Assembly: GCF_003611695.1 (NCBI RefSeq)
Contig: NZ_RAWE01000081.1
Location: forward strand, 1-37,406
DNA from: Corallococcus carmarthensis
GTDB lineage: Bacteria > Myxococcota > Myxococcia > Myxococcales > Myxococcaceae
Reading direction: 5' to 3'
DNA: 37,406 nt
The notes under the pieces were generated by a model, which did no database searches, was not told the origin of the DNA, and saw only the letters and a program-made list of their open reading frames with translations. Of the stretch, positions 14,734 to 35,479 are shown in pieces. Made by a program: the position numbers and the translations under genes. The first letter of the stretch is position 1. Every line of letters begins with the position of its first letter.

Positions 14734-15485
14734 GGGGTGTTGTTCCTTGGGGCGAGGGCTTCCGCGATGAGGCGCAGGAGGGTGGACTTCGGTTCCGGGT
14801 CCCGCAGGTAGAAGTGGCCCCCGGGCAGCAGGTGGAGCGCGAAGGGCCCGGTGGTGTGGATGCGCCACGGGTCCAGTTCCTCGCGGGTCAGGTCGTCCTC
14901 GGTGCCGCCCGTGACCGTCATCGCGCAGGGGAGGGGTGCACGGTCTTCGTGCCGGTGGGACTCCACGAGGAGCAGGTCCGCGCGCAGGCCTGGGAGGATG
15001 AGCTCGCGCAGCTCTTCGTCCTCGCGCAGCTCGTGGATCAGCTCGCCGTAGGTGGGTTCAAGGGCGGTGAGGAGCCCGTCCTCGTCCAGGTGGCTCGCGG
15101 GGATTCCGCGCGGAGGAAGCTGTGGGGCCGGAGCCGCGGAGAGGAACAGTGCATCGGGTGTCACCCGGCCCAGGTCGCGCAAACGATGAGCCGTCTCGAA
15201 GGCCATGAGCGCCCCCAGGCTGTGGCCGAAGAACGCGAAGGACGTTCCGAAGTCCACCGCGCGCACCAGGGCTTCCACCAGTTCGTGCAGCCGGGTGAAC
15301 GGCGCTTCTTCCGCTCGAGCCCCACGGCCAGGGAACTGCACGCCCCAGACTTCGATGTCCGGGAGCAGGTCCGCCCAGCGGACGTACTCGCCCACGGAGC
15401 CGCCGCTGTGCGGGAAGCAGAAGAGGCGCACGGGCGCTGCCGGACGCCGGATGCGGCAGGCGAGCCAGGGAGAAGTCGTGCTCAT
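14730..15485 (-). CDS. Type II thioesterase of the NRPS/PKS operon
   Basis: A 251-aa discrete alpha/beta hydrolase of the GrsT/RifR type. The N-terminal VRLFCFPHSGGSVGEYVRWA is followed by WGVQFPGRGARAEEAPF, the nucleophile elbow FFGHSLGALMAFE, the lid region SHLDEDGLLTALEPTYGEL, Asp within GGTEDDLTREEL and the terminal His in LPGGHFYLRD. The usual role is hydrolytic removal of aberrant acyl groups from carrier domains. As no release domain is integrated in the assembly line, it could also free the final product; that is inference. Both ends overlap neighbours by ATGA, showing translational coupling. Confidence 0.93.
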   Translation of the reverse strand: MSTTSPWLACRIRRPAAPVRLFCFPHSGGSVGEYVRWADLLPDIEVWGVQFPGRGARAEEAPFTRLHELVEALVRAVDFGTSFAFFGHSLGALMAFETAHRLRDLGRVTPDALFLSAAPAPQLPPRGIPASHLDEDGLLTALEPTYGELIHELREDEELRELILPGLRADLLLVESHRHEDRAPLPCAMTVTGGTEDDLTREELDPWRIHTTGPFALHLLPGGHFYLRDPEPKSTLLRLIAEALAPRNNTP

Positions 15486-18460: not shown

Positions 18461-21400
18461 TCCACTTCCTCTCGGGAGCGATCCGACGCCAACCGGCCCT
18501 GACGGCCCAGCAGGCGCGCACGTCCACTGCGTCGTTGCTCCTGGCGCTGCTCCTGCGCGGCCGCGGCCTCTCCACCATCGTCATGGCCCTGGAGATGTCC
18601 CGCGAGCGCACGGATGGTGGGGAACTCGAACAGCGTCACCATGGGCACGTCGTGGCCCATGCGCTGCTTCAGGAGGTACTGCACCTGTGCCAGCAACAGC
18701 GAGTGACCACCGAGGTCGAAGAAGTTGTCCTCCGCGCCCACGCGCTCCAGGCGCAGCGTCTCGCACCAGATGCCAGCGATCCGCCGCTCGTGCTCGTTCG
18801 CGAGCGGGACCTGGGGCGCCTGGGTGCCAGGCGTGGGCGCGGGCAGCGCCCGTTCATCCACCTTGCCGCCGTGGGTGAGCGGCAGCGACCTCAGCTCCAC
18901 GTACGCGGAGGGGATCATGTACGCGGGCAACTCGCGAGCGAGGTGCTCACGCAGCCGCGCCGGTGTGGGCAGTGCCTGTCCGGTGCGTGGCACGACGTAG
19001 CCGACCAACTGCGGCGCTCCACCGGGAGGGCTCCACGCGCGGACGTGCGCCTCCGCGAGTCCGGGATGCGTGCGCAGCCGCACGGCGACCTCCGCGGGCT
19101 CCACGCGGAAGCCACGAATCTTCAGCTGCGCGTCCATGCGGCCCAGGAACTCGAGCATCCCGTCCTGACGGCGCAGGACCCGGTCGCCGGTGCGGTACAT
19201 GCGCGCGCCTGGATGTGCCGCGTACGGGTCAGGGATGAAGCTCGCGGCGGTGAGGTCCGGGCGGTTCAGATAGCCGCGCGCAACACCGGCACCGCTCACG
19301 TACAGCTCTCCCGCGACGCCCGTAGGGACAGGTTGCAGCTCCGCGTCCAGGACGTAGGCCGTGGTCCCATCGATGGGCTGGCCAATGGTGGGCAGTTCCT
19401 CATCAACCTCCGAGGGCAGCACCTCGCCGGACGTAGCTGTGACGGTGGTCTCGGTGGGCCCGTACTGGTTGAACAACCGCCATGGCAGTCCGGGCATGGG
19501 ACGCACATGGAGGCGGTCTCCGCCAGCGAGCACCGTGCGCAATTCGCACGCGTCAGGCCAGGGCAGGGCCAGCAGACGTTCAGCGAGCGCCGTGGGCAGG
19601 TCCGTGAAGGTGATGCGCTCCGAGAGGAGCCACGCCTGGAGCCGCTCCGGGGACAGGCGCACGTCCTGCCCGGGGACGTGCAGCGTCGCGCCCGAGGTGA
19701 GGGCCGGCCAGAGCTCCGCGACGGACGGATCAAACGCGGGTGAGTAGAGCAGCGTGGTGCGGCTGTTCTCATTCAAGCCAAAGGCGCGCCGATGCCATCC
19801 CACGAGGTGGGCCAACGCGCCGTGTTCCACCACCACGCCCTTGGGGACGCCCGTGGAGCCGGAGGTGTACATGACGTAGGCCCGCTGACCGGGCCGCGAC
19901 TCCGTGAGCAGGCCACCCGTGGGCGTGCCAGGTCCACGGAAGTCTTCGATGCGCACGCGCTCCAGCGTGGCGGGGAGCCGGTCCGCGAGCAGCCCGGTGG
20001 TGACCACCTGGCGCACGCCGGCATCCCGGAGGATGAGCGCGATCCGCTCGGCCGGATGCTCCGGATCCAACGGCAGGAAGGCAGCTCCGGTCAGCATCAC
20101 GCCCAGTTCGGCCGTCACGAGCTCCGCGCCGCGAGGCGTGCAGACAGCGACGACCGACTCCACGCCCGTGCCGTGTTCGCGGAGATGTTCCGCGAGCAGC
20201 GTCGCGCGCCGGACCAGCTCCGCGTAGGTGAGGGTGCCTGACTCGTCGCGCACGGCCACGGCGTCAGGGGTCCGCAGGGCCTGCGCCAGGACCTGGTGAT
20301 GCACCGGCGGTTCAGCGCTGACTGGCGTCGCGAATCCGTTTCCCAGGACGACCTGCCGCTCCGCATTCGAAAGCATCGGCAGGCGGGACACCGGCATGCC
20401 AGGGCTGGCCACCGCGGCCTCGAGCAACCGGAGGAAGTGCGCGGCCATCCGCTCCATCGTCGAGCGGTCGAAGAGGTCCCGGTTGTACTCCCAGATGAGC
20501 GAGATGCGCGCGTCGCCGCGCTCCTTGTCGCCCAGGTATCGGCCCGCGTGCGGAATGGCGACGACGTCCAGGTCCACCTTCGAGGACCCATTGCCCCGCT
20601 CGAAGATGGTGCAGGACGCATCGCCCAGCTGGGGGCTCCGCACGGCGGAGTCGTGGAAGCTGAACATGGCCTGCACGAGCGGATTCCGGCTGGGATCGCG
20701 CTTCACGCCCAGGGCTTCAATCAGCTTGAGGAACGGATACGTCTGGTGCTCGGCCGCCGCCACGGTGAGGTCCCGCACCTGGCGGACCAGCTCGCGGAAC
20801 GACGGCGCGCCGGAGACGTCACACCGGAGGACCACGGCGTTGACGAACATGCCGATGACGTTCTCGATGTTCCGGACGCCCGCCCGGGCCGCGAACGCCG
20901 AGCCGATGCACAGGTCCTGCTCGCCGGTGTAGCGATGCAGCAGCGTGGCGAAGGCGGCGAAGAGGGCGTTGAAGAGGGTGACACCCTCCTGCTGGCAGAA
21001 TGCTCGCAAGGCGCCGGGCAGGGCGGGTGGCAGCTCCAACCGGAGCAGGTCGCCGTTGAAGGTCTGCACGCGGGGCCGCGGGTGGTCGGTGCGCAGCGGC
21101 AGCACCTCCGGAGCACCGGCCAGCCGCGTCCGCCAGAAGTCGAGCTGGGCCTTCATGGCCGGACCGTCGAGCGCCTCGCGCTGCCACGCCGCGAAGTCGC
21201 GGTACTGCACCGGAAGCTCCGGCAACGGCGACGGCTGGCCCCGGAGGTAGGCGTTGTAGAGCGCGTCCAGCTCCCGCATCAGCACGGAGAAGGACACGCC
21301 GTCGTGGACGACGTGGTGTTCAACGAGGACCAGCTCGTGATCATCCGGAGCCAATCGGATGACGGTCCAGCGAACGAGCGGCGGTTCGAAGAGGGACAGG

Positions 21401-23535
21401 GGCCGCCGCAGCTCCTGGCGAAGGGCTTCTTCACGCCGGTGCTCGCGCTCGTCCGTGGACAGCCTGGACAGGTCGAACAACGGGACGTGGACTGGCGTCA
21501 CGGGAAGCACGCGCTGCCATGGCCGGCCGTCGACTTCCTCGTAGGTCGTCCGCAGCAGCTCATGGCGCCGGGTGATCTCCGTCAGGGCGCGTTCGAGCAC
21601 CGCCAGGTCCAACCCACCCAGCACGCGGAGCGTCGTCTGCGCCTGGTAGGAGATGCTTCCGGGAGACAGCTTCTGGAGGAACCAGACCTGTTCCTGTTGC
21701 ACGGAGAGCGGAGCCCGTTCGGGGTCGGCGACTCGGACCACGGGGGGCAGTGCGGCCTTCGCGGGACTGGACTGGCGCGACTCCAATACCTTCGCCAGCT
21801 GGGAGATGCGGCGGTGGGCGAAGAGCTCGGTCAGCGACAGCGGGAGGCCCATCACGTCCGTGACGCGAGCGGTGATCCGCGTGGCCAACAGGGAGTGGCC
21901 GCCCAGTTCGAAGAAGTCGTCCTCGATGCCAATCCGCTCCAGGCGCAGCTCCTCCTGCCATACCTGGACGAGCCCGTGCTCCAGCTCCGTGCGCGGCGCG
22001 ACATACGCGCTGCTTCGGGTTGCGTGGGCATCGGGTGTGGGGAGCGCATGGGCGTCAACCTTGCCGGTGGGGCCCAGGGGGAGGGCGTCCACGACGACGA
22101 AGGTCCGGGGGAGCATGGCTTCGGGGAGCCAGGCGCGGAGGTGCTCGCGGAGCTGCTCCGTCCCGGGGACAGCCCGCGCGTCCTTCGGCGCGAACCACGC
22201 CACGAAGGAGACGTCCTGGCCCTCGGTCCCGGTGGTGCTCCGCGCCACGACGTGCGCGGCTCCGACGTGCGGATGGGTCAACAGCGCGGCGGTGATCTCC
22301 GCGGGCTCGATGCGGATACCGCGGACCTTCACCTGTCGGTCCGAACGGCCGTGGAACTCCAGCGAGCCATCCGGCAACCGGCGGCCGAGGTCTCCCGTGC
22401 GATACAGCCGTTCGCCGCCGAACCGGGAGAATGGATCCGGAATGAAGCGGTCAGCGGTCAGGTCCGGAGTGCCCACGTAACCGCGAGCCAACCCCGGTCC
22501 GCTGATGAACAGCTCTCCAGTCTCGCCCTCCGCCACGGGCCGCAGCTCCGGACCGAGGACATGGACCTCCACGCCGTCAATGGGATGACCGATGGAGGGC
22601 AGCCGTTCCTCGGACGAGGTGTCACAGGAAGGGACGACACCGGACGTGCTGTAGATGGTGCACTCAGCGGGGCCGTAGCCGTTCACGAGTTGGAACGGCA
22701 GCCCGGGCCTGGGGTGCAGGTGCAGCCGGTCACCGCCAGTGAGCACCCAGCGCAGGGCACAGGACTCGGGCCAGGACAGTGGGAGGATGCGCTCGGCCAG
22801 GGGCGTGGGCAGGAAGGCGCAGGTGATGTCCCGGGCCAGCAGCCAGTCCTGAAGCTTCTGGGGCGACAGGCGGGTCTCCTCGTCAGGAGGCAGCTCCAGC
22901 CGAGCGCCCGCGGCCAGCGACGGCAGGAGGGCCATGACCAACGCGTCGAAGCCCGGCGATGCGATCACGCCGATGCGATCCGCTGACGACAGGCCGAACG
23001 TGTCGCAGTGGTACTCGGTGAAGGCAGACAGGGCCCGGTGGCTGATCATCACGCCCTTGGGCAACCCGGTGGAGCCCGAGGTGTGGATCACATAGGCGAG
23101 GTGATCCGGCTGGACGGTGACGCCCGGGTTCACGTCCGGGAACGACTCCAGCGACAGGGCCGCCGGGGCCAGGACCTGGATGCCGTCCGCCGCGAGCCGC
23201 TCCACGGCTGGCCCCGAGCCGATGACGAACCGGGCCCCTGTCGAGACGGACATGTATCGCAGGCGCTCGGGAGGGGCGGACGGGTCCAATGGCAGCCAGG
23301 CCGCTCCGGCCTTGAGGACGCCCAGGACGGACGCCACCATCTCCACGCTTCGCGGAAGGCAGACGCCGACGAGGACGTCCGGACCCGCGCCCCGAGCCAT
23401 CAACGCATGGGCCAGCCGGTTCGCGTGCGCGTTCAGCGCGGCATGGGTGAGCGAGCGGGCCCGGGAAGCGACGGCGAGCTGGGAGGAAAGTTCGGTCGCT
23501 CGTCGCTCGACGAGCTGGTGGACGGGGGGCAGCAA
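18457..23535 (-). CDS. Nonribosomal peptide synthetase, A-PCP-C-A-PCP
   Basis: A 1692-aa dimodular synthetase that activates two amino acids and joins them. A1 (~1-500) has YVIHTSGSTGLPKG, NGYGPAECT, YRTGDLG and Lys in GPTGKVD. PCP1 has Ser ~548 in ELGGHSLLA. The C domain (~600-1040) has the intact active site VEHHVVHDGVS. A2 (~1075-1560) has YVMYTSGSTGVPKG, NQYGPTETT, YRTGDRV and GGKVD. PCP2 has Ser ~1612. Starting with A means it is an initiation module; no epimerase or methyltransferase is seen. My hand-aligned specificity residues are D-A-M-F-L-G-G-I-Y-K for A1 (aliphatic-looking) and D-P-A-D-L-G-Q-V-T-K for A2 (no match I know). These need software confirmation. I chose the TTG at 23535 (GGAGG four bases upstream) over the TTG at 23577. 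The C-terminal ~45 residues are Gln/Arg/Glu-rich. It is the first gene of the four-gene operon. Confidence 0.93.
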   Translation of the reverse strand: MLPPVHQLVERRATELSSQLAVASRARSLTHAALNAHANRLAHALMARGAGPDVLVGVCLPRSVEMVASVLGVLKAGAAWLPLDPSAPPERLRYMSVSTGARFVIGSGPAVERLAADGIQVLAPAALSLESFPDVNPGVTVQPDHLAYVIHTSGSTGLPKGVMISHRALSAFTEYHCDTFGLSSADRIGVIASPGFDALVMALLPSLAAGARLELPPDEETRLSPQKLQDWLLARDITCAFLPTPLAERILPLSWPESCALRWVLTGGDRLHLHPRPGLPFQLVNGYGPAECTIYSTSGVVPSCDTSSEERLPSIGHPIDGVEVHVLGPELRPVAEGETGELFISGPGLARGYVGTPDLTADRFIPDPFSRFGGERLYRTGDLGRRLPDGSLEFHGRSDRQVKVRGIRIEPAEITAALLTHPHVGAAHVVARSTTGTEGQDVSFVAWFAPKDARAVPGTEQLREHLRAWLPEAMLPRTFVVVDALPLGPTGKVDAHALPTPDAHATRSSAYVAPRTELEHGLVQVWQEELRLERIGIEDDFFELGGHSLLATRITARVTDVMGLPLSLTELFAHRRISQLAKVLESRQSSPAKAALPPVVRVADPERAPLSVQQEQVWFLQKLSPGSISYQAQTTLRVLGGLDLAVLERALTEITRRHELLRTTYEEVDGRPWQRVLPVTPVHVPLFDLSRLSTDEREHRREEALRQELRRPLSLFEPPLVRWTVIRLAPDDHELVLVEHHVVHDGVSFSVLMRELDALYNAYLRGQPSPLPELPVQYRDFAAWQREALDGPAMKAQLDFWRTRLAGAPEVLPLRTDHPRPRVQTFNGDLLRLELPPALPGALRAFCQQEGVTLFNALFAAFATLLHRYTGEQDLCIGSAFAARAGVRNIENVIGMFVNAVVLRCDVSGAPSFRELVRQVRDLTVAAAEHQTYPFLKLIEALGVKRDPSRNPLVQAMFSFHDSAVRSPQLGDASCTIFERGNGSSKVDLDVVAIPHAGRYLGDKERGDARISLIWEYNRDLFDRSTMERMAAHFLRLLEAAVASPGMPVSRLPMLSNAERQVVLGNGFATPVSAEPPVHHQVLAQALRTPDAVAVRDESGTLTYAELVRRATLLAEHLREHGTGVESVVAVCTPRGAELVTAELGVMLTGAAFLPLDPEHPAERIALILRDAGVRQVVTTGLLADRLPATLERVRIEDFRGPGTPTGGLLTESRPGQRAYVMYTSGSTGVPKGVVVEHGALAHLVGWHRRAFGLNENSRTTLLYSPAFDPSVAELWPALTSGATLHVPGQDVRLSPERLQAWLLSERITFTDLPTALAERLLALPWPDACELRTVLAGGDRLHVRPMPGLPWRLFNQYGPTETTVTATSGEVLPSEVDEELPTIGQPIDGTTAYVLDAELQPVPTGVAGELYVSGAGVARGYLNRPDLTAASFIPDPYAAHPGARMYRTGDRVLRRQDGMLEFLGRMDAQLKIRGFRVEPAEVAVRLRTHPGLAEAHVRAWSPPGGAPQLVGYVVPRTGQALPTPARLREHLARELPAYMIPSAYVELRSLPLTHGGKVDERALPAPTPGTQAPQVPLANEHERRIAGIWCETLRLERVGAEDNFFDLGGHSLLLAQVQYLLKQRMGHDVPMVTLFEFPTIRALAGHLQGHDDGGEAAAAQEQRQEQRRSGRARLLGRQGRLASDRSREEVE

Positions 23536-23606
23536 GAATCCTCCAACCGGCGCCGCACCACGTCCGAGCAAAATCAAGCGTTTAGCGGATTTGGGCCGTT
23601 TTCAGG

Positions 23607-23718: not shown

Positions 23719-23736
23719 TACGAGCCTCGGCGCACC

Positions 23737-24270
23737 CTAGAAGAGGGAGCGTGCGGGCACGCAGCTGTAGCGGGTCGGGCCACCGAGGCCGAGCTGGCCA
23801 TCGGTGTTGGCCCCCCAGGACCAAAGGGTTCCGTCGTAGCCCAACGCCAGCGAGAAGGCCTCGAACTGACGGATGGACTGTCCCGAGGCCACGCTCTGGA
23901 TCCCATTCAGGCTGGGGACCCGAACGGGAACAGCACTGGAGACGAAAGTGCCGATCCCAAATTCTCCCTCGGAGTTCGCCCCCCAGGTCCACACGGTGCC
24001 GTCGGAGCGCACCGCCATGGAATGACGGCTGCCTGCGGACACAGACACGACGCCGCTCAAGCCGGGCACTTGTGTCGGGGGATGCGACATCATCGTGATG
24101 CCGATTCCCAGCTCTCCAGAGCCATTGGAGCCCCAAGCCCAAAGAGTGCCGTCGGAGCGCACGGCGAGAACGTGGAGTTCCCCCGGATCCAGGGAGACGA
24201 CATTGCTCAACCCCGGCACCCGGATGGGGCTGTTGCGCTGTTCCGTGGTTCCATCGCCCAATTGTCCAGC
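23737..24270 (-). pseudogene. 3' remainder of the CxxCH/RCC1 gene beyond an in-frame TGA
   Basis: This continues the upstream reading frame exactly after the TGA at 24273-24271. It encodes the second half of RCC1 unit 11 (GQLGDGTTEQ) and units 12-14, ending VPARSLF. A separate start at TTG 24261 would give 174 aa, but with no signal peptide and half a blade at its front. An independent gene is therefore unlikely. Either the protein is truncated in this strain, or the TGA is read through, or it is a sequencing error. Units 12-14 remain well conserved (WAWGSNGSGELGIG, WTWGANSEGEFGIG), so any loss of function is recent. Confidence 0.7.
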
Positions 24271-27200
24271 TCAGTTGCTGCCCCAGGCCCAGACGCTCCC
24301 GTCATAGTGCAAGGCGAGAGAGAAGTCGGGCCCAGCGGCGATTGCCACGATGCCGCTCAAGCCCGGCACCTGGACGGGGAGGGGCTGCCACCAGGTCATG
24401 GTTTCGCTCCCCAATTGTCCATTCCAGTTGTCGCCCCAGGCCCAGACAGTCCCGTCGTAGCGCAGCGCGAGTGAATGAGTGTTGCCCGCTGCCACCGAGA
24501 CAATCCCATCCAGTCCAGTAACCTGCGTGGGCCCCGAGCGTTGACTCGTCACGCCCAGACCCAGTTGCCCATACTCGTTGTCCCCCCAGCTCCAGACGGT
24601 CCCGTCGTAAAGCATGGCCAGGGAATGATACCCGCCCGCGGAGATGGCTCCGACATTGTTCAATCCTTCGATCCGGGTCAGGGCCGAGCGTGGAGCCGGG
24701 TCATCCTGTCCGAGTTGGCCCACGCTGTTGTCGCCCATTGCCCAGACGGTGCCATCGAAATGCTGCGCGAGGACGTGGTTGGCCCCCCCCGACACCGCCA
24801 TGACGAAGTCCACCCCGGACACCTGTGCCGGAGTGGTTCGTGCGCTCGGTGTTCCATCGCCTCGCTGGCCTTCACGGTTCTCGCCCCAGCTCCAGACCGA
24901 GCCATCCGCGCGCATCGCCAGGACGTGGTCGTCTCCCACGTTGACGGACACGAATCCGCCGGGGAGGCCGGACACGGGCTGAGGCGCCGTGGCTGCCTGC
25001 CGGTTTCCCGTTCCCAGCTGACCACTGGTGTTCAGTCCCCAGGCCCAGAGGCTGCCGTCCGAACGCAACACCATCGCAGAGCGTCCACCCGCCGCCACCG
25101 TGACGGCCCCCGTCAAGCCCGCGACCTGAACGGGTGACTTGTCGGACACCCAGTTCCAACTCCCATTCGTATTCTGGTGAGTGACTCTCGAGCCCCAGGC
25201 CCAGACCGTGCCATCCGAGCGAGCCACCACGGAGCTGCCGGAGCCCGCTCCCACGGCCACGACATCCGTCATTCCAGAAACGGGCAGCGCGGTGAGCCGG
25301 CGGGTCTTGGTGCCATCTCCCAGCTGACCGGCGTCATTCCATCCCCAGGCCCAAAGGGTCTTGTCAGAGCGCAGGGCCAGGACATGGCCCACACCTACGG
25401 CGACAGAGGTGACTCCGTTCACGCCAGAGACGAGACCGGGCAGCAAGCGGGAAGTCGTCGAGCCGTCACCGAGCTGTCCTTGGGAGTTGCTACCCCAGGT
25501 CCACAATGTGCCATCGGCGCGTAGCGCCACGGAGTTTAGACCTTTCGCCGCCACGGCCGTGATCGCCGTCAGGCCAGGAACCTGCACCGGCGTGGTTCGG
25601 CGAAGCGTCGTGCCATCTCCAAGCTCGCCAAAGTCATTGCTGCCCCATGCCCACACCGTCCCGTCAGCACGCAGGGCAAGGGAATGACTGGAACCTGCGG
25701 CCACGGCCACGACCCCGCTCAGTCCTGACACCTGGACCGGCGTGGTGCTGTCGAGCGTCGTTCCGTTTCCCAACTGACCGGCGCCGTTATTGCCCGAGGC
25801 CCGGACCGTCCCATCAGGATGCACGACCAGGGAGTGAAAGGTGCCCGCCGCGAGGCACCCCATGGTGAGGCAGGGGCGCGGACGGTTCAGGAACGCTTCG
25901 AGCACGGCCGCGCGGTGGGGCAGGAAGACGTTCACCACCGCCGGGGACAGCAGGAAGCGCGTGCCCTCCGGCCCCGTCTCCGTGGTCTCGCTGGTGTGGG
26001 TGAACCCCAGCGACCGGGGCCACGTCTGGGGCAGGCCCACGTTGGCGCCATTGCTCAGGTCGTGACAGCCCGCGCATGACAGCGCCTTGGCGCGCTGGAT
26101 GATGTGGTCCGGCGTCAGCGGACTGCCGATGCGCGTGAGCTCCGTCTGGAGTGCCGACCGGAGCGTGCCGCCGCTTCCGAACTGGACGCTGTAGTTGTTC
26201 TCCGATCCCTGCGCCTGGCTCTGGCCACCGTTGAAGCGGTCCGGCACCTCGTAGTTGAAGAGGTTGAGGTCCGCGACCGCCAGCGCCGCCACCTGGCCGG
26301 GGAGGAAGGCGCGGAAGTCCGCCGCCAGCGGGTGCGTGGACGTGGGGCTGAACAGCCCGCCAAAAGGGTTCACCTTGTCCGTCACGGCCACGGCCTTGAG
26401 CGCGGTGCAACCGGTACCGCCGCAGGTCTTCTGGAGCTTGAACTCGCGCAGCATCCAGTTGGCCTGCATGAACATGTTGGTGCGGATCTGCCCCATGCCC
26501 CGGCCGGCCTCCGCACCGTAGTTGTCGATGTGCACCACGGGCCGGAAGCCGGGCAGGCCCTGGAAGAAGAACTGACGGAGCGCGGCGCCGCGGGAGGCCA
26601 GGTCGTTGTTGGCCGACAGGTCCTTCCAGAACCGTGCGACGGCCAGGCAGCCCTCCAGTCCCTTCGCGGGGGCGGGGTTGGGCAGTGAGGCCTCGAAGAT
26701 GATGAAGTTGCGGTTCGTCGCGCTGCTCGCGCCGGAGCGCTTCGCGAAGACGATGCGGTACTCACCGCAGTCCGCGCCGTCCACCGGGGCCAGGTCGAAT
26801 CGGTTGAAGAGCCCCACAGCCATGTACGCATTGCCCGAGTTCGGGTCGGCGAACGGATCCACCTGGGCCTGGGAACCTTCGGCCGGGCGGCAAAGGTAGG
26901 GATGGCCGTTGAAGGCAGGGTTGCCGCTGCCATCCACCTGGTCGTTGCAGTGTCCACCCAGGCCCAGTCCCGGCTTGGGATTCTGGGTGTCCCAGAGCTG
27001 GCGGAAGAGCTGCAAGCTGGTGAGGCCCGGCACGCCGCTCTGCGTGACGAGCTGATCCATCACCTGCTTCAGCGTGAAGGTGCTGACGATGGCCTGCTCG
27101 GTGACCGCGAGCGAGCGGCGAGCGTCCACCGCCAGTTGCGTCGTGGGGGCCGCCCCCAGGGGCGCGCGGAAGCTCAAGCCAATGCCACGGCGCTCCGAGT

Positions 27201-27357
27201 GGAGTGACGTCGCCACCTGCGTCACGAGTTCCTGGGACACCGACCCGTCACGCTCGAGCGCGGCGGGAGGGTCGGCATCGGGAGGAGGTGAGGCACAGCC
27301 CACGAGCAGGGCCAGGGCAAGCACCAGGGACAGCCGGATGGGGGTGGCAGGGGTCAT
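24271..27357 (-). CDS. Lipoprotein with CxxCH-containing N-terminal region and RCC1 repeats (truncated by TGA)
   Basis: The product is 1028 aa as read; it would be 1206 aa without the TGA. The lipobox signal LALALLVGCASPPP puts Cys at 21, so it is probably an outer-membrane lipoprotein. Residues ~30-490 form a region found in other myxobacterial secreted proteins by my recollection, but with no named function. It contains SCAGCHDLSNG (CxxCH at 428-432), a possible c-type heme site, and several further Cys (GHCNDQ, YLCRP, ADCGEY, KTCGGTGC). From ~497 come RCC1-like units of about 50 residues (for example HSLALRADGTVWAWGSNDFG then ELGDGT). Ten complete units plus half of the eleventh precede the stop; 14 exist across both pieces, consistent with two seven-bladed propellers. 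I chose the ATG at 27357 because the signal peptide starts there; no clear ribosome site is seen. Confidence 0.8.
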   Translation of the reverse strand: MTPATPIRLSLVLALALLVGCASPPPDADPPAALERDGSVSQELVTQVATSLHSERRGIGLSFRAPLGAAPTTQLAVDARRSLAVTEQAIVSTFTLKQVMDQLVTQSGVPGLTSLQLFRQLWDTQNPKPGLGLGGHCNDQVDGSGNPAFNGHPYLCRPAEGSQAQVDPFADPNSGNAYMAVGLFNRFDLAPVDGADCGEYRIVFAKRSGASSATNRNFIIFEASLPNPAPAKGLEGCLAVARFWKDLSANNDLASRGAALRQFFFQGLPGFRPVVHIDNYGAEAGRGMGQIRTNMFMQANWMLREFKLQKTCGGTGCTALKAVAVTDKVNPFGGLFSPTSTHPLAADFRAFLPGQVAALAVADLNLFNYEVPDRFNGGQSQAQGSENNYSVQFGSGGTLRSALQTELTRIGSPLTPDHIIQRAKALSCAGCHDLSNGANVGLPQTWPRSLGFTHTSETTETGPEGTRFLLSPAVVNVFLPHRAAVLEAFLNRPRPCLTMGCLAAGTFHSLVVHPDGTVRASGNNGAGQLGNGTTLDSTTPVQVSGLSGVVAVAAGSSHSLALRADGTVWAWGSNDFGELGDGTTLRRTTPVQVPGLTAITAVAAKGLNSVALRADGTLWTWGSNSQGQLGDGSTTSRLLPGLVSGVNGVTSVAVGVGHVLALRSDKTLWAWGWNDAGQLGDGTKTRRLTALPVSGMTDVVAVGAGSGSSVVARSDGTVWAWGSRVTHQNTNGSWNWVSDKSPVQVAGLTGAVTVAAGGRSAMVLRSDGSLWAWGLNTSGQLGTGNRQAATAPQPVSGLPGGFVSVNVGDDHVLAMRADGSVWSWGENREGQRGDGTPSARTTPAQVSGVDFVMAVSGGANHVLAQHFDGTVWAMGDNSVGQLGQDDPAPRSALTRIEGLNNVGAISAGGYHSLAMLYDGTVWSWGDNEYGQLGLGVTSQRSGPTQVTGLDGIVSVAAGNTHSLALRYDGTVWAWGDNWNGQLGSETMTWWQPLPVQVPGLSGIVAIAAGPDFSLALHYDGSVWAWGSN

Positions 27358-27483
27358 GGCAGGAGCAATCCAAACAGGGCTCGCGGAGAGGCGAATCGGC
27401 CTCATGCGGGAAGACAAAGAGAAGCCTTTCCCACAAGCCACAAGCAAGCATTTCCGCGCCAGTCTGATTGCAAAGGAATTCTC

Positions 27484-27504
27484 GTCTTGATGTGTCATCA
27501 AGAC
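27484..27504. promoter_or_regulatory. Perfect 9-3-9 inverted repeat upstream of the CxxCH/RCC1 gene
   Basis: GTCTTGATG and CATCAAGAC are exact reverse complements around TGT. The site is 127-147 bases upstream of the ATG at 27357, in a locally AT-rich stretch that could hold the promoter. An operator is the simplest reading. The geometry equals that of the palindrome at 290-310, but the sequence differs. Confidence 0.4.
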
Positions 27505-27570
27505 AAAGCGCAGCCAAGCCCCCTCCGCAATGCCAGACACCGACCCCAGGGCAACCCAACGCCGATGCCG

Positions 27571-28086: not shown

Positions 28087-30459
28087 ATGAGAAGCGAGAG
28101 TCGATGCGGGCTGGCCGTGCTGGCAATGGGCCTGGTGTTGGCGCTGGCAGGATGTGGCGAGCAGCAAGTGCTGGAGGGCAGCGCGCAGGCGGTGGTGACG
28201 CTGCCGCAGGCGCTGAGCGCTAGCGACATCGCCCGCGTGGAGCTGACGGTGAGTGGCGCGGGCATGACGACGCGCACCGACGCGCTGGTGAAGACGGGCG
28301 GGCAGTGGGGTGGGGTGCTGGGACAGTTGCCCGCTGGCACCGGCCGCACCTTCAGCGCCCGGGCCTTCGACGCCTCCAACACCGTGCGCTACGCGGGCCA
28401 GGTGATGGGCGTCGCCATCCAGGCCGGGCTTACGACAGCCGTCACGCTTCTTCTGCAGGAGGTGAATGCACCGCCTCCCTTCGACAACGCGGCCCCGCGC
28501 ATCCTCTCCCTGGTGGCCAGCCCTGGCACCGTCGCCCCGGGCGGACAGGTGGCCCTCCAGGCCACCGCGGATGACCCGAACGCGGGCGACTCACTCACGT
28601 ATGCGTGGACGGCGCCTTCCGGCAGCTTCAGCACCGCCTCCAGCCTCTCCACGACCTGGACGGCGCCGACAGCGGCAGGACAGGTCGTGCTGACGCTGAC
28701 AGTGACAGACTCCAAGGGCGCCATCGCGGCCCTCGGCGTCACCCTCACGGTGAGCACCGGCAATGGCAGCGCCGCCGTCAACGTCTCCTTCAACACCTGG
28801 CCCCAGGTGACGAAGCTGACGGCCCTGCCGTCCTCCGTCGCCGTCGGCCAATCCACCCAGGTGACGGCCTCCGCCAGCGACTCGGACGGCGACAGCCTCA
28901 GCTTCGAGTGGACGGCCAGCTGCGCCGGCACGTGGACGAACACCACTTCCGCCACCGCCAGCTTCACCCCTTCGGCCCAGCCCTCCGGCGGCACGTGCAC
29001 GCTCAGCGTGGCGGCGCGGGACGGGCGGGGCGGACAGGGCATCGGCAGCCTCACCCTCTACGTGGGCGTCCCCACCACCGGGCAGTTCCCACCGGAGATC
29101 GTGGAGACCTTCCACTCGATCGCCACCGTGCCGGCGCAGGGGGATACCGTCGTCTTCCGGGCGAGGGCGCGAGACCCGCAGGGCAGCGCGCTCTCTTTTG
29201 CCTGGACCGCGAACGCAGCCGGGCTGGGCACGGCCAGCAACAGCCCGACCTTCAGCGAAGTGCTCTGGTCGGCGGGCGCCTGCCTCACCTCGGGCACGTC
29301 CCTCACGGTGACAGTCACCGTCACCAACGCGCTGGGGTTGTCCGCCAGCGCCTCCATGGTCCTGGCGGGCGGCACGCCATGCACTTCATCTCCGAGGCGC
29401 GTGGCATGGATCGCCGCGGGAGGCGCGCACAGCCTGGTCGTGCGACAGGACGGCACCGCGGTCGCGTGGGGCAACAACGCCTACGGGCAGCTTGGGGATG
29501 GGACGAACGCGGACCGGCTCATTCCCGTGCCGGTGCCAGTGCAGGACCTCACGGGGGCCACGGCCCTGTCCGCCACCGCCTACCACACGCTCGCGCTCCA
29601 GCAGGACGGCACCGTGTGGGGCTGGGGGTACAACGACTCCGGCCAACTGGGGGATGCCTTGGACGTGGTCCGCGTGACGCCAGCTCAGCTCCCCGGCCTC
29701 ACGGGCATCACGGCCCTGGCCTCGGGGACCTACCACTCGCTCGCGCTCCAGCAGGACGGCACCGTGTGGGCCTGGGGCCTCAACAATCTGGGCCAACTGG
29801 GGGATGGGACGACCGTCAGCCGCCCCGAGCGGATGCCCGTCCCCGGCCTCACGGGCGTCACCGCCCTGGCCGCGAGCACGTATCACTCGCTCGCATTGAA
29901 GCAGGACGGCACCGTGTGGACCTGGGGTTACAACAGCTCCGGGCAGCTGGGAGATGGGACGACCACGAGCCACCTCACGCCCGTGCAAGTGCAGGGGCTG
30001 ATGGGTGTATCAGCCATCGCCGCGGGGCTGGTCCATTCGCTCGCGCTCAAGCAGGACGGCACGGTGTGGACCTGGGGCCGCAACACCGACGGTCAGCTCG
30101 GGAATGGAGCCACCGTGAACAGCCCGGTACCGGTGCGGGTGCAGGGGCTGACGGCGGTGACGGCCATGGCCGCGGGGGCCTATCACACGCTGGCGCTGAA
30201 GCAGGACGGCAGCGCGTGGACCTGGGGCCGCAATGATGCCGGCCAGCTCGGAGATGGAACGGTCGCGGGCAGCCTCACACCGGTGCAGGTGCAAAACCTG
30301 ACGGCGGTGACTGCCCTGGCCGGAGGCGACGCGCATTCCATGGCGTTGCTGCGGGACGGCACCGTGTGGACCTGGGGCTACAACGGCGAGGGCGAGCTGG
30401 GCGATGGAACGACGACCGACCGCGCCGCGCCCGTACGGGTGCAGGGCTTGGACGACTGA
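28087..30459 (+). CDS. Tandem RCC1 lipoprotein 1: Ig/PKD-like domains plus seven-unit RCC1 propeller
   Basis: 790 aa. The lipoprotein signal LVLALAGCGEQQ places Cys at 23. Residues ~30-125 form a conserved domain (VVTLPQALSASDIARVELTV; WGGVLGQLPAGTGRTFSARA). Three Ig/PKD-like beta domains follow: ATADDPNAGDSLTYAWTAPS; SASDSDGDSLSFEWTASCAG; then ARDPQGSALSFAWTANAAG. Cys pairs in the second and third suggest disulfides. From ~437 there are exactly seven RCC1 units, e.g. YHSLALKQDGTVWTWGYN and GQLGDGT. The C-terminus ends with the seventh blade. RCC1 propellers are protein-interaction platforms; this one would be displayed on the cell surface or face the periplasm. The ATG at 28087 has GGAG eight bases upstream. 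This copy is the most diverged of the three and starts the array. Confidence 0.9.
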   Translation: MRSESRCGLAVLAMGLVLALAGCGEQQVLEGSAQAVVTLPQALSASDIARVELTVSGAGMTTRTDALVKTGGQWGGVLGQLPAGTGRTFSARAFDASNTVRYAGQVMGVAIQAGLTTAVTLLLQEVNAPPPFDNAAPRILSLVASPGTVAPGGQVALQATADDPNAGDSLTYAWTAPSGSFSTASSLSTTWTAPTAAGQVVLTLTVTDSKGAIAALGVTLTVSTGNGSAAVNVSFNTWPQVTKLTALPSSVAVGQSTQVTASASDSDGDSLSFEWTASCAGTWTNTTSATASFTPSAQPSGGTCTLSVAARDGRGGQGIGSLTLYVGVPTTGQFPPEIVETFHSIATVPAQGDTVVFRARARDPQGSALSFAWTANAAGLGTASNSPTFSEVLWSAGACLTSGTSLTVTVTVTNALGLSASASMVLAGGTPCTSSPRRVAWIAAGGAHSLVVRQDGTAVAWGNNAYGQLGDGTNADRLIPVPVPVQDLTGATALSATAYHTLALQQDGTVWGWGYNDSGQLGDALDVVRVTPAQLPGLTGITALASGTYHSLALQQDGTVWAWGLNNLGQLGDGTTVSRPERMPVPGLTGVTALAASTYHSLALKQDGTVWTWGYNSSGQLGDGTTTSHLTPVQVQGLMGVSAIAAGLVHSLALKQDGTVWTWGRNTDGQLGNGATVNSPVPVRVQGLTAVTAMAAGAYHTLALKQDGSAWTWGRNDAGQLGDGTVAGSLTPVQVQNLTAVTALAGGDAHSMALLRDGTVWTWGYNGEGELGDGTTTDRAAPVRVQGLDD

Positions 30460-30509
30460 CACCCAGCGGCGCGGGAGAGGGTTCGAAGTTTCATGATCAG
30501 GAGAAGCAA

Positions 30510-32870
30510 ATGAGAAGCGAGAGTCGAAGCGGTCTGGCTGTGCTGACCCTGGGCCTGGTGCTGGCGTTGGCCGGGTGCGGTGGCACACAAGCGCAGGAAG
30601 GCAGCGCGCAGGCGGTAGTGACGCTGCCGCAGGCGTTGAGCGCCAGCGATGTGGCCCGTGTGGAGCTCACCGTGTCCGGCGCGGGGATGACGACGCGCAC
30701 GGACGCGCTGGTGAAGACGGGCGGGCAGTGGGGTGGGGTGCTGGGGCAGTTGCCCGCGGGCACCGGGCGCACCTTCAGCGCGCAGGCCTTCGACGCCTCC
30801 AACACCGCGCGCTACGCAGGACAGGCGACGCCCGTCACCATCCAGGCCGGGCAGACGACGGCTGTCACGCTTCTATTGCAGCAGGTGAATGCGCCCGCGC
30901 CTTTCGACAATGCGGCCCCGCGCATCCTCTCCCTGGTGGCCAGCCCTGGCACTGTCGCCCCGGGCGGACAGGTGACCCTCCAGGCCACCGCGGACGACCC
31001 CAACGCGGGCGACTCCCTCACGTATGCGTGGACGGCGCCTTCCGGCGGCTTCAGCGCCGCTTCCAGCCTCACCACCGCGTGGACTGCGCCGGCGACGTCG
31101 GGCCCGGTGGTGCTGACGCTGACGGTGACGGACTCCAAGGGCGCCTCGGCCTCCCTCAGCGTCACCCTCACGGTGAGCACCGGCAACGGCAGTGCGGCCG
31201 TGAATGTCTCCTTCAACACCTGGCCCCAGGTGGTCGGAATCAACGCCACGCCGTCCTCCATCGCCGTGGGCCAGGTCACCCAGGTGACGGCCTCCGCCAG
31301 CGACTCGGACGGCGACAGCCTCGGCTACGAGTGGACGGCCAGCTGCGCCGGCACGTGGACGAACACCACGTCCGCCACCGCGAGCTTCACCCCTTCGGCC
31401 CAGCCCTCCGGCGGCACCTGCACCCTCACCGTGAAGGCGCAGGACGGCCGAGGCGGGCAGGGACAAGGCAGCCTCACCGTCTACGTGGGCACGACCACCA
31501 CGGGGCGATTCCCTCCGGAGGTGGTGGAGACATCCCAGTCCGCGGCCACGGTGCCGGCCGCGGGTGGCACCGTGAACTTCGGCGTGCGGGCGAACGACCC
31601 CCAGGGCAGCGCGCTTTCCTTCGCATGGACCACCAGCGCGGGCACGCTGGGCACGAACACCCACAGCGCGACGACGAGCGAAGTCCTCTGGACGGCGCCC
31701 GCGTGCGTGCCTGGCGGCTCTCCACCCACCGTGACGGCCACAGTCACCAATGCGCTGGGCCTCTCCACCCACTTCGCCTTCACCCTCCAGGGCGGCACCG
31801 CCTGCGCCGTGAGCGCCGGGGCTCGTCTCGTGGCGGGCGGGGTTCATGATCTCGCCTTGAAGCAGGACGGCACCGTCTGGGCCTGGGGCCACAATGCCGC
31901 AGGCCAGCTCGGCGACGGGACCGTCACAAGGCGCCTCACGCCCGTGCAGGTGCAGGGCCTGACGGGCGTCGCGGCCCTTGCCGCGGGCTACTACCATTCA
32001 CTCGCCTTGAAGAAGGACGGCACCGTCTGGGCCTGGGGCTACAACGCACAGAGCCAGCTCGGCGACGGAACCGTCACGGACCGCGCCATGCCCGTGCAGG
32101 TGCAGGGCTTGACGGGCGTCGCGGCCATTGCCGCGGGTGACTACCATTCGCTCGCCTTGAAGCAGGACGGCACCGTCTGGGTCTGGGGCTACAACGCACA
32201 GGGCCAGCTTGGAGACGGAACCGTCACGAACCGCCTCACACCCGTGCAGGTGCAGGGTTTGACGGGTGTCGCGGTCCTCGCCGCTGGCTTCCGCCATACA
32301 TTCGCCTTGAAGAAGGACGGCACCGTGTGGGCCTGGGGCCGCAACTCCGATGGCCAGATCGGCGACGGAACCATCACGGACCGCCTTGCGCCCGTGCTGA
32401 TGCCGGGATTGACGAGCATCGCGGCCGTCGCCGCGGGCGACTCCCATACGCTCGCCTTGAAGCAGGACGGTACCGTCTGGTCCTGGGGCTTCAACGCATC
32501 GGGCCAGCTCGGCGACGGAACCGCCACGAACCACCTCTCGCCCGTGCAGGCGCAGGGTTTGACGGGCGTCACGGCCCTCGCTGCTGGCTACTACCATTCG
32601 GCCGCCTTGAAGCAGGACGGCACCGTCTGGGCTTGGGGTCGTAACGCCGACGGACAGCTCGGCGACGGAACCGCCACGGACCGACTTGCGCCCGTGGGGA
32701 TACCGGGACTGACGAGCGTCGCGACCCTCGCTGCTGGCTACTTCCATATGGTCGCCTTGAAGCAGGACGGCACCGTCTGGGCCTGGGGGAACAACACCCA
32801 GGGACAGCTTGGGGACGGAACCGCCACGAACCGCTTCACGCCCGTGCAGGTGCAGGGGCTGAGTCTCTGA
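30510..32870 (+). CDS. Tandem RCC1 lipoprotein 2
   Basis: 786 aa with the same architecture as its upstream neighbour: lipobox LVLALAGCGG (Cys23), N-terminal VVTLPQALSASDVARVELTV domain, three Ig/PKD-like domains, and seven RCC1 units from ~430 to the end. A unit reads YHSLALKQDGTVWVWGYN then AQGQLGDGTVTNRLTPVQVQ. The gene starts 50 bp after the previous stop. That gap holds only the short leader ending GGAGAAGCAA before ATG, which is common to all three copies, so it is probably cotranscribed with gene 1. The ATG at 30510 was chosen from that leader; the open frame back to 30366 is unrelated sequence. Its Ig2 sequence (VVGINATPSSIAVGQVTQV) differs from copies 1 and 3, while its Ig2 end matches copy 1, a mosaic pattern. 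Confidence 0.9.
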   Translation: MRSESRSGLAVLTLGLVLALAGCGGTQAQEGSAQAVVTLPQALSASDVARVELTVSGAGMTTRTDALVKTGGQWGGVLGQLPAGTGRTFSAQAFDASNTARYAGQATPVTIQAGQTTAVTLLLQQVNAPAPFDNAAPRILSLVASPGTVAPGGQVTLQATADDPNAGDSLTYAWTAPSGGFSAASSLTTAWTAPATSGPVVLTLTVTDSKGASASLSVTLTVSTGNGSAAVNVSFNTWPQVVGINATPSSIAVGQVTQVTASASDSDGDSLGYEWTASCAGTWTNTTSATASFTPSAQPSGGTCTLTVKAQDGRGGQGQGSLTVYVGTTTTGRFPPEVVETSQSAATVPAAGGTVNFGVRANDPQGSALSFAWTTSAGTLGTNTHSATTSEVLWTAPACVPGGSPPTVTATVTNALGLSTHFAFTLQGGTACAVSAGARLVAGGVHDLALKQDGTVWAWGHNAAGQLGDGTVTRRLTPVQVQGLTGVAALAAGYYHSLALKKDGTVWAWGYNAQSQLGDGTVTDRAMPVQVQGLTGVAAIAAGDYHSLALKQDGTVWVWGYNAQGQLGDGTVTNRLTPVQVQGLTGVAVLAAGFRHTFALKKDGTVWAWGRNSDGQIGDGTITDRLAPVLMPGLTSIAAVAAGDSHTLALKQDGTVWSWGFNASGQLGDGTATNHLSPVQAQGLTGVTALAAGYYHSAALKQDGTVWAWGRNADGQLGDGTATDRLAPVGIPGLTSVATLAAGYFHMVALKQDGTVWAWGNNTQGQLGDGTATNRFTPVQVQGLSL

Positions 32871-32879
32871 CGAGGCGCT

Positions 32880-32905
32880 GGGCGCCCGCGTCTGGCGGGC
32901 GTCCC
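32880..32905 (+). terminator. Hairpin after tandem RCC1 gene 2
   Basis: GGGCGCCCGC pairs with GCGGGCGTCCC (one bulge), starting 10 bases after the stop at 32870. No U-run follows. A related stem follows gene 3 at a similar distance, so the 3' flank is part of the duplicated unit. Confidence 0.45.
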
Positions 32906-32967
32906 ACACTCCGACGTGACGGTGAACGGCTCGTCCTCTTGGGTCGCCCTGGAGAGAAAGGGGACGG

Positions 32968-33056
32968 GAGAGGTCCGAAGGCACCTGCTCGGTGCGAGGA
33001 CGACTCAGGAGCACGGGCAAGGGGCTGCTCGTAGAGTCCCGCGCTCCTCTCCTTGG
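32968..33056 (+). repeat. ~90-bp leader block, copy 2 (upstream of third tandem RCC1 gene)
   Basis: The counterpart of 27923-28012, ending 51 bp before the ATG at 33107. The core GCTCGTAGAGTCCCGC is identical to copy 1 apart from the first base pair region. Its presence implies that gene 3 has its own expression signals, whereas gene 2 lacks the block. Confidence 0.65.
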
Positions 33057-33106
33057 AAAGGCCTTGGAGGAAGAGGGCTTTCAAGTTCCACGCACCGGAG
33101 AAGCAA

Positions 33107-35479
33107 ATGCGAAGAGAGAGTCGAAGCAGGCTGGCCGCGCTGGCGCTGAGCCTTGTGTTGGCATTGGCCGGGTGCGGCGGCGCGCAAGGACAAGAGGCGC
33201 AGGAAGGCAGTGCGCAGGCAGTGGTGACGCTGCCGCAGGCGTTGAGCGCCAGCGACGTGGCCCGCGTGGAGCTCACCGTGTCCGGCGCGGGAATGACGAC
33301 GCGCACGGATGCGCTGGTGAAGACGGGCGGGCAGTGGGGTGGGGTGCTGGGGCAGTTGCCCGCCGGCTCCGGCCGCACCTTCAGCGCGCAGGCCTTCGAT
33401 TCCTCCAACACCGTGCGCTACGCAGGACAGGCGACGCCCGTCACCATCCAGGCCAACCTGACGACGGCCGTCACCCTGCTGCTGCAAGAGGTGAATGCGC
33501 CACCGCCCTTCGAGAACGCGGCCCCGCGCATCCTCTCCCTGGTGGCCAGCCCCGGCACCGTCGCCCCGGGCGGTCAGGTGTCCCTCCAGGCCACCGCGGA
33601 AGATCCCAACGCGGGTGACACCCTCACGTACGCGTGGACGGCGGCCTCCGGCAGCTTCAGCGCCGCGTCCAGTCTCACCTCCACCTGGACGGCACCGGCC
33701 TCCGCCGGCCCGGTGACACTGACGCTGACGGTGACGGACTCCAAGGGTGCATCGGCATCCCTCAGCGTCATCATCACCGTGAGCACCGGCAACGGCAGCG
33801 CCGCCGTCAACGTCTCCTTCAACACCTGGCCCCAGGTGACGAAGCTGACGGCCCTGCCGTCCTCCGTCGCCGTCGGCCAGGCCACCCAGGTGACGGCCTC
33901 CGCCAGCGACTCGGACGGCGACAGCCTCAGCTACGAGTGGGTTGCTTCGTGCGCGGGCACCTGGGCGAATGCCTCCTCCGCGAGCCCCAGTTTCGCGCCT
34001 ACCGCCCAGCCCCCCGGCGGCACGTGCACGCTCAGCGTCGCGGCGCGGGACGGGCGCGGAGGGCAGGGCATCGGCAGCCTCACGATCTACGTCTCGACGT
34101 CCCCCACCTCCGGGCAGCTCCCACCCGAAATCGTGGAGACGTTCCAGTCGGTGGTCTCGGTGCCCGCCTCCGGTGGCACCGTCGTCTTCCGCGTGCGGGC
34201 GAAGGACCCGCAGGGCAGCGCGCTCAGCTTCGCCTGGGCCACCAGCACCGGCACGCCAGGCACCGCCTCCACTACCGGAACCACCAGCGAAGTGCTCTGG
34301 ACGGCGCCCTCCTGCGTGCCCGCGGGCAATCCACCCACGGTGACGGCCACTGTCACCAACGCCTTGGGCCTGTCCGCTTCTTACGCCTTCGCTCTCCAGG
34401 GCGGCCCCGCCTGCGCTACGAGTCCCTCGGCTCGTCTCGCGGGTGGCCTGCAGCATACGCTCGCCTTGAAACAGGACGGCACTGTCTGGGCCTGGGGCCG
34501 CAACGCAGATGGCCAACTCGGCGACGGGACGACGACGGCCCGCCCAACGCCCGCGCAGGCACCGGGCGTGACGGGCGTCACGGCCCTCGTTGCTGGCGGC
34601 TACCACTCGCTCGCCTTGAAGCAGGACGGCACCGTCTGGGCCTGGGGCCATAACTCAGAGGGGCAACTCGGCGACGGGACGACGACGGCCCGCTCGACGC
34701 CCGTGCAGGTGCCGGGATTGACGGGCGTCGCGGTCGTCGTCGCTGGCGGCTATCACACGCTCGCCTTGAAGCAGGACGGCACTGTCTGGGCCTTGGGAAA
34801 CAACGCAGCGGGCCAACTCGGCGACGGGACGAGGGCGAGCCGACTCACGCCCGTGCAGGCGCAAGGGTTGACGGGCATCGCGGCCCTCGTTGCTGGCACC
34901 TACCACACGGTCGCCTTGAAACAGGACGGGACCGTCTGGGCTTGGGGATACAACAACGAGGGCCAACTCGGCGACGGGACGACGACGGACCGACTCACGC
35001 CCGTGCGGGTGCAAGGCTTGACGGCCGTCACGGCCATTGTCGCTGGCGACAGCCGCACGCTCGCCTTGAAGCAGGACGGCACCGTCTGGGCCTGGGGCCG
35101 CAACGCAGAGGGCCAACTTGGCGACGGGACGACGACGACCCGCCCAACGCCCGTGCAGGTGCCGGGATTGACGGGCGTCGCGGCCCTGGCCGCTGGCGTC
35201 TACCACACGCTCGCCTTGAAGCAGGACGGCACTGTCTGGGCTTGGGGGAACAACGACCACGGCCAATTCGGCGACGGGACGAAGGTGAGCCGACTCACGC
35301 CCGTGCAGGTGCCGGGATTGACGGGCGTCGCGGCCCTTGTTGCTGGCGGCTCCCACACGCTCGCGTTGAAGCAGGACAACACCGTCTGGGCCTGGGGTCG
35401 TAACGCAGAGGGGCAACTCGGCGACGGGACGACGACGGTTCGACTCACGCCCGTGCAGGTGCCAGGCCTGAGTCTCTGA
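33107..35479 (+). CDS. Tandem RCC1 lipoprotein 3
   Basis: 790 aa, third copy. The lipobox LVLALAGCGG (Cys23) is followed by a slightly longer spacer (AQGQEAQEGSAQ), the shared N-terminal domain and three Ig/PKD-like domains. Exactly seven RCC1 units start near 440, e.g. YHTLALKQDGTVWALGNN, then AAGQLGDGT. It is closest to copy 2 in the propeller, where the DNA for LALKQDGTVWAWG recurs almost unchanged from unit to unit. In Ig2 it instead matches copy 1 at the start (QVTKLTALPSSVAVGQ) and is private at the end (SCAGTWANASSASPSFAPTA). The ATG at 33107 follows GGAGAAGCAA, as in the other copies. A 236-bp gap with the leader block separates it from gene 2. Confidence 0.9.
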   Translation: MRRESRSRLAALALSLVLALAGCGGAQGQEAQEGSAQAVVTLPQALSASDVARVELTVSGAGMTTRTDALVKTGGQWGGVLGQLPAGSGRTFSAQAFDSSNTVRYAGQATPVTIQANLTTAVTLLLQEVNAPPPFENAAPRILSLVASPGTVAPGGQVSLQATAEDPNAGDTLTYAWTAASGSFSAASSLTSTWTAPASAGPVTLTLTVTDSKGASASLSVIITVSTGNGSAAVNVSFNTWPQVTKLTALPSSVAVGQATQVTASASDSDGDSLSYEWVASCAGTWANASSASPSFAPTAQPPGGTCTLSVAARDGRGGQGIGSLTIYVSTSPTSGQLPPEIVETFQSVVSVPASGGTVVFRVRAKDPQGSALSFAWATSTGTPGTASTTGTTSEVLWTAPSCVPAGNPPTVTATVTNALGLSASYAFALQGGPACATSPSARLAGGLQHTLALKQDGTVWAWGRNADGQLGDGTTTARPTPAQAPGVTGVTALVAGGYHSLALKQDGTVWAWGHNSEGQLGDGTTTARSTPVQVPGLTGVAVVVAGGYHTLALKQDGTVWALGNNAAGQLGDGTRASRLTPVQAQGLTGIAALVAGTYHTVALKQDGTVWAWGYNNEGQLGDGTTTDRLTPVRVQGLTAVTAIVAGDSRTLALKQDGTVWAWGRNAEGQLGDGTTTTRPTPVQVPGLTGVAALAAGVYHTLALKQDGTVWAWGNNDHGQFGDGTKVSRLTPVQVPGLTGVAALVAGGSHTLALKQDNTVWAWGRNAEGQLGDGTTTVRLTPVQVPGLSL

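Follow-up and report, generated by a model that had tools for sequence, protein, structure and literature searches.

Three tandem plus-strand genes in a 37,406-nucleotide stretch of DNA from Corallococcus carmarthensis, a soil-dwelling predatory bacterium (the window, by which we mean the whole stretch analysed) encode what we take, with a probability of roughly 0.6, to be lipid-anchored modular binding proteins that are predicted to reside in the outer membrane and whose ligand face appears to diversify between paralogues. We propose that a rigid stalk, composed of an N-terminal domain and three Ig/PKD-like domains with two conserved cysteine pairs, carries a closed seven-blade RCC1 propeller, a single face of which would hold the putative ligand site. 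The role of the proteins would be binding rather than enzymatic. Their repertoire would grow by tandem duplication, with paralogues exchanging the N-terminal part of the stalk, blades being homogenised and whole heads being replaced. Candidate ligands are a protein or glycan from prey, phage, kin or the environment; a role in kin or prey contact is a guess.

The three open reading frames are colinear: gene 1 (28087-30459, 790 aa), gene 2 (30510-32870, 786 aa, after a gap of about 50 bp) and gene 3 (33107-35479, 790 aa). The motif GGAGAAG sits five bases 5' of the ATG of gene 1, and no promoter-like or terminator-like patterns were found above shuffles. Open reading frames, Pfam and lipobox agree with the architecture proposed in a first-pass annotation, in which each of the three lipoproteins consists of a lipobox (LAGC at residues 20-23, with Cys23), an N-terminal domain, three Ig/PKD-like domains and seven RCC1 units of about 50 residues. 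Pfam assigns seven RCC1 (PF00415) and seven RCC1_2 (PF13540) stretches to every protein, with E-values for RCC1 of 4e-87 or better and 287-295 bits against a cut-off of 21.7. Two Ig/PKD regions are Pfam matches (K319L-like_PKD, Big_9; best stretches near 150-225 and 250-325), and the third Ig-like domain lies outside these best stretches, yet is conserved among homologues and all-beta in the structural model. In gene 1 the N-terminal domain and the first two Ig domains (residues 24-330) occupy positions 28156-29076, the third Ig-like domain (residues 331-437) 29077-29397 and the RCC1 head 29404-30456. The 21 RCC1 units of the three genes are spaced at 150 nt with the sole exception of 156 nt after unit 1 of gene 1. 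A chance or low-complexity repeat was ruled out by the register of the 21 units and by Pfam scores far above the cut-off. Mean pairwise nucleotide identity of the units is 65% in gene 1, 79% in gene 2 and 81% in gene 3 with 89% for the highest pair, so that the earlier description of the unit DNA of genes 2 and 3 as nearly identical was too strong.

An AlphaFold2 model of the gene 2 protein, built from a 15-sequence alignment, reached a mean pLDDT of 81, with head blocks mostly at 84-97. Its overall pTM is only 0.51 and the five models range from 63 to 81, and the arrangement of stalk and head is therefore not fixed. Together with Pfam, the model supports the layout of lipid anchor, stalk and interaction head that had been annotated. 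Propellers usually close by a split last blade, and the head sequences open with a strand completing the last blade and have a unit seven that ends without this strand. In the predicted model the gene 2 head (31821-32867) forms a closed seven-blade ring with closing strands at both ends. Structural superpositions span the heads only; the best solved match is UVR8 (6xzl), on whose chain residues 18-379 the model residues 438-786 are placed with Z 57.4 and an rmsd of 1.2 Å over 349 residues. It is conceivable, although we consider it unlikely, that the proteins are secreted or anchored inhibitors of the BLIP-II kind, in which the propeller face would block hydrolases or lactamases, whether hostile or the cell's own, and would diversify as the enzyme targets change. 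BLIP-II binds its target through a propeller face. A sequence search places it among the solved matches with 1jtd (E 9.6e-27), as does the fold comparison with 3qi0 (Z 29.3; 41% identity across 248 residues), but UVR8, HERC and RCC1 outrank it in the structure matches. Moreover, the lipid anchor and stalk suggest display rather than free diffusion, and the Kelch and Lcl_C heads found on the same stalk would need another target logic.

The first-pass annotation had read the constant number of seven units as suggesting selection for a closed propeller, and both the UVR8-like model and the unit counts support a closed propeller kept at seven. Counts were obtained from 60 stretches taken from the stalk matches listed, each with several genes and two of them from the window's own assembly besides its RCC1 loci; stalk matches that were short or of about 32-38% identity lie largely outside this sample. 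After removal of duplicates, 113 of 156 ORFs formed the non-redundant set, in which seven units were counted in 23 of the 24 complete RCC1 heads borne on the stalk. Counts other than seven in orthologues had been named as evidence against closure. The single such head, L130 7674-9464 from a C. exercitus draft, carries a lone RCC1 unit whose start and end resemble fused first and last units; it is possibly a real deletion or, since the draft contig has a coverage of 8.5, an assembly collapse. Stalkless RCC1 proteins (n = 22) have 7 units in eleven cases, 14 in five, 7+7 in two and 8 in two, the remaining two rows being pieces of the broken window gene 4 described below. Among 49 complete Kelch heads, seven units were counted in 43 (gap-filled; 38 raw), 14 in two, 28 in one and six in three, each of the latter having seven raw matches with one irregular under the counting rule used. 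L133 shows five units and is truncated by the contig end, the divergent L037 has 8 units by gap filling, and L056 from another genus has a broken frame and about 8-9 units. Free variation of the blade number was not seen in the main sample, where exceptions are few, and the expectation that near-identical repeats would promote gain or loss of units failed, as unit-number change is not frequent there. The 28 Kelch units, four times seven, belong to a 2049-residue stalk protein (L094 6375-12521, minus strand) in tandem with other stalk genes. In the window's own genome, four tandem RCC1 genes without stalk (L039 2292-11986, minus strand) have seven units of about 55 residues each.

Choosing variable blade positions from the tested heads would have been circular, and they were therefore defined from eight RCC1 proteins without stalk (74 units) and tested on 26 heads. 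The most variable unit positions of these independent proteins are 7, 8, 24, 26, 27, 37, 39 and 45. In the model, positions 7-8 and 24-37 fall into the pair of loops on the same side of the blade, position 39 opens the next strand and position 45 lies on the opposite side; six of the eight would belong to loops on one propeller face, an assignment that follows the model's DSSP strand order and not measured positions. At unit position 7 the window genes have G, D, T, Y, L, F, V or A instead of the interface tryptophan (W285) of UVR8, whose residue 285 belongs to the dimer interface. The alignment of position 7 with this residue was made on entry 4nc4, a W285F variant with Phe at this site.

Units in register were kept, which left 143 of 182 for the unit-position analysis and 5-7 of seven per head for the divergence test. 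Replacement divergence exceeded 4-fold silent divergence at the variable positions in 22 of 26 heads with an interval above 0 in a bootstrap that is coarse with 5-7 units. High GC biases silent sites and lowers silent divergence; the same excess was found in 14 of 15 heads with silent divergence under 0.28, and heads with 4-fold divergence of at least 0.30 are near saturation and carry little weight. Between the blades of the gene 3 head (34430-35476) the excess is +0.30 (0.22 to 0.37) and for gene 2 it is +0.18 (0.02 to 0.37), while gene 1 showed no excess (+0.12, interval -0.05 to +0.26). The other three heads without excess are the gene 1 orthologues L041 and L134_7181, and L134_9603. Comparisons between heads covered 12 hand-chosen pairs, of which four gave p under 0.01, one p 0.065 and seven no excess in Fisher tests that take sites as independent. 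Replacement changes outweighed silent ones at the variable positions in the tandem paralogues L049/L084 (34/113 vs 21/235, p 9.8e-07), in two further pairs of paralogues or near-paralogues, L079/L144 (49/96 vs 45/192, p 3e-06) and L079/L049 (56/115 vs 45/232, p 2.6e-08), and in gene 3 vs L141 (p 0.0014). Gene 3 vs L132 gave p 0.065, gene 2 and its nearest head L131 showed no excess (25/113 vs 51/232, p 0.54), and neither did gene 1 with its three orthologues, where the variable positions are conserved (9/109 to 14/108, below silent change). Random sets of eight positions reached the observed value in 0 of 10,000 draws for each of the four excess pairs and in 3,056 of 10,000 for the gene 1 pair. 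As gene 1, gene 2/L131 and gene 3/L132 lack an excess, diversification applies to part of the family; for the window genes, it is seen chiefly inside the gene 3 and gene 2 heads. The stalk, with a pN/pS of 0.28-0.40 (7 pairs), is under purifying selection, as are the gene 1 orthologues at these positions. The comparison of variable blade residues that had been suggested for this family thus places them mostly on one face and finds them diversifying between paralogues (26 heads and paralogue pairs). We conclude that the binding face is probably conserved where its job is fixed, as in gene 1, and re-tuned after duplication elsewhere.

Concerning the location of the proteins, a lipobox-like match is present in 77 of 85 stalk homologues. 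In the accessible part of a study of M. xanthus lipoproteins, Lys+2 occurs in 8 of 12 predicted inner-membrane lipoproteins and Ala+7 in 7 of 10 matrix lipoproteins (PMC3222651). Because residue +2 is Gly in genes 1-3, without Lys+2, and residue +7 is not Ala, sorting to the outer membrane is predicted. By position, the stalk has two conserved cysteine pairs (279/304 and 399/432), which are invariant in nine homologues and are in line with its export. It seems quite improbable to us that the propellers are merely structural spacers, i.e. building parts of matrix, vesicles or cell surface in which variation is tolerated and not selected. This idea draws on the several paralogues per genome among the matches listed and on the RCC1 repeat protein MXAN_0889, which mass spectrometry detected in outer membrane vesicles of M. 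xanthus according to the accessible part of PMC4158809. However, relaxed constraint would not push replacement above silent change at defined positions, and the Ala+7 matrix signal occurs in 0 of the 77 lipobox-bearing stalk proteins.

The genes also have a mosaic history. Residues 24-330 of gene 1 resemble same-genome paralogues more than, or nearly as much as, any orthologue; its second Ig domain, for example, shares 85-87% with genes 2 and 3 vs 72-80% with the orthologues L041, L134 and L043. The third Ig domain tracks the orthologues together with the head, both being 83-89% identical in amino acids to L041 and L134 and 79-83% to L043, but only 60-62% to genes 2 and 3. The blades of gene 1 match orthologue blades one-to-one by position (7/7) in three other species. 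Between genes 1, 2 and 3, blade position hardly matters for similarity, and in genes 2 and 3 unit identity is as high within a head as between heads. These domain identities and blade-position matches indicate that the gene 1 head is old and stable and that homogenisation has acted among the blades of each head in genes 2 and 3. One could argue that the proteins are periplasmic housekeeping scaffolds in which gene conversion alone drives repeat turnover and the blade pattern; homogenisation within heads is real in genes 2 and 3, and outer-membrane sorting does not equal surface exposure. Still, conversion alone would cut differences at both kinds of sites and does not lift replacement over silent change, and recurrent head exchange is unlike a housekeeping scaffold; we consider this explanation unlikely.

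Head exchange is part of the history of this modular family. Of the 39 relatives searched, at least 28 have homologues of the stalk, all 15 genomes of the same genus among them, and outside the genus the listed matches are mostly partial. At the C-terminal end these homologues carry RCC1 or Kelch propellers, Lcl_C, beta-helix or other regions. A family restricted to RCC1 is ruled out, since this stalk also bears Kelch and other heads; the RCC1 lipoproteins described in the first-pass annotation are real, but the family they belong to is not RCC1-specific. On a 'quick' tree of 85 stalks, of which 24 bear RCC1, 48 Kelch and 12 other heads and one is broken, RCC1 and Kelch heads changed into one another at least 6 times (fewest changes), far below shuffled labels, so head exchange is recurrent and not constant; as 22 of the 82 inner branches are open and the stalks are partly mosaic, these counts are approximate. 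The third Ig domain of L070_11401, for instance, has 90% DNA identity to an RCC1-bearing stalk, but its head is Kelch (42%). The Kelch heads of L070_11401 and of L134_12140 from C. interemptor are about as near to each other as to heads whose stalks are 44-50% identical, and the modelled head of the latter resembles the seven-blade propeller of galactose oxidase (9g43, Z 37.7, rmsd 2.2 over 320). A further Kelch-headed protein (L070 13801-16902) has an extra Ig-like domain (residues 585-701) preceding its head, which may be left over from a head exchange. In L135 10617-12206, a 'stalkless' version, seven RCC1 units follow the N-terminal domain and nothing matches the stalk's Ig domains.

Genes 1-3 are bounded by an NRPS gene and a ChrA gene. 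Between the same neighbours, genome G009 carries one RCC1 and two Kelch genes (RCC1, Kelch, Kelch); in C. interemptor two RCC1 genes and one Kelch gene adjoin the same NRPS on a contig piece that stops before ChrA; and C. exercitus has, besides a 7+7 RCC1 gene, the one-unit gene and a 14-unit relative of window gene 4 that is intact. The NRPS-to-ChrA locus is a syntenic hot spot with differing head sets in related genomes. In G009, a block with signal peptidase-, ABC transporter- and small membrane protein-like genes lies between the RCC1 and Kelch genes (L070 7070-10585, minus strand) and, judged by eye, is possibly an inserted transport cluster. Gene 4 (23728-27540), which was absent from the first-pass annotation, adjoins genes 1-3 on the minus strand and encodes an RCC1 lipoprotein-like protein with another N-terminal region. 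It is split by an in-frame TGA near 24271-24273, within unit 11, and has 11 + 3 units by HMM and 14, two times seven, by motif. Its C. exercitus orthologue (L130 3950-7600; 84% identity) is open through 14 units, and the stop is either a recent pseudogene mutation or a sequencing error. RCC1 is the sole Pfam match of gene 4; its N-terminal region contains a CAGCH motif (CxxCH, haem-c-like). NRPS-like and polyketide-synthase-like genes flank the RCC1 cluster at 15482-23577 on the minus strand, as assigned by reading and synteny only.

A wider reading, which we put forward tentatively, is that Corallococcus and its kin maintain a recognition repertoire in which a homogenised lipoprotein stalk shows interchangeable seven-blade heads from two unrelated propeller lineages, RCC1 and Kelch, and positive selection re-tunes up to about 50 one-face loop residues per duplication, for recognition of prey, phage or rival kin. 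Bacterial RCC1 and Kelch heads can also be enzyme partners, inhibitors or scaffolds. Propellers are known binders, and one stalk with swapped seven-blade heads and a diversifying face would, if true, be a natural display platform. The family provides testable candidates for myxobacterial recognition of prey, phage or each other, and, as a natural experiment, lets one ask why repetitive propellers keep to seven blades.

Such a repertoire would follow a logic comparable to that of LRR receptor families. Like members of the RCC1 superfamily (RCC1, UVR8, HERC, RPGR), genes 1-3 close a seven-blade ring from seven RCC1 units, but they are bacterial, lipid-anchored on an Ig stalk and much more repetitive in their blades; we do not claim the roles of this superfamily (Ran, chromatin, light sensing) for them. 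The beta-lactamase inhibitor protein BLIP-II of Streptomyces is likewise an RCC1 propeller, exported by a bacterium and with a protein as its binding partner; its blades are shorter and, unlike genes 1-3, it has neither anchor nor stalk. BtuG of Bacteroides and Lp49 of Leptospira are surface lipoproteins that combine a lipid anchor with a seven-blade propeller used for binding; they differ from genes 1-3 in being single proteins of other propeller families, and we know of no head exchange in propeller lipoproteins of their type. In the open literature searched, we found no description of a Myxococcaceae family exchanging propeller lineages on one stalk, which appears to be undescribed. Repetitive RCC1/BLIP-II propellers as such are a known, mostly bacterial class that makes up 10% of the set of Pereira and Lupas 2022, and the accessible part of that paper contains no mention of myxobacteria or Corallococcus (PMC9218822). 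A comparable archaeal case is the VARTIG module of Thermococcales, whose Ig protein, in the accessible part of its description, is conserved upstream and hypervariable in a C-terminal part that is attributed to recombination, with function unassigned; its variable part is an Ig domain and not a propeller (PMC8416519). Finally, whereas blade numbers form a continuum with peaks in the part of Pereira and Lupas 2022 available to us (PMC9218822), those of the stalk family are almost always seven or multiples thereof.
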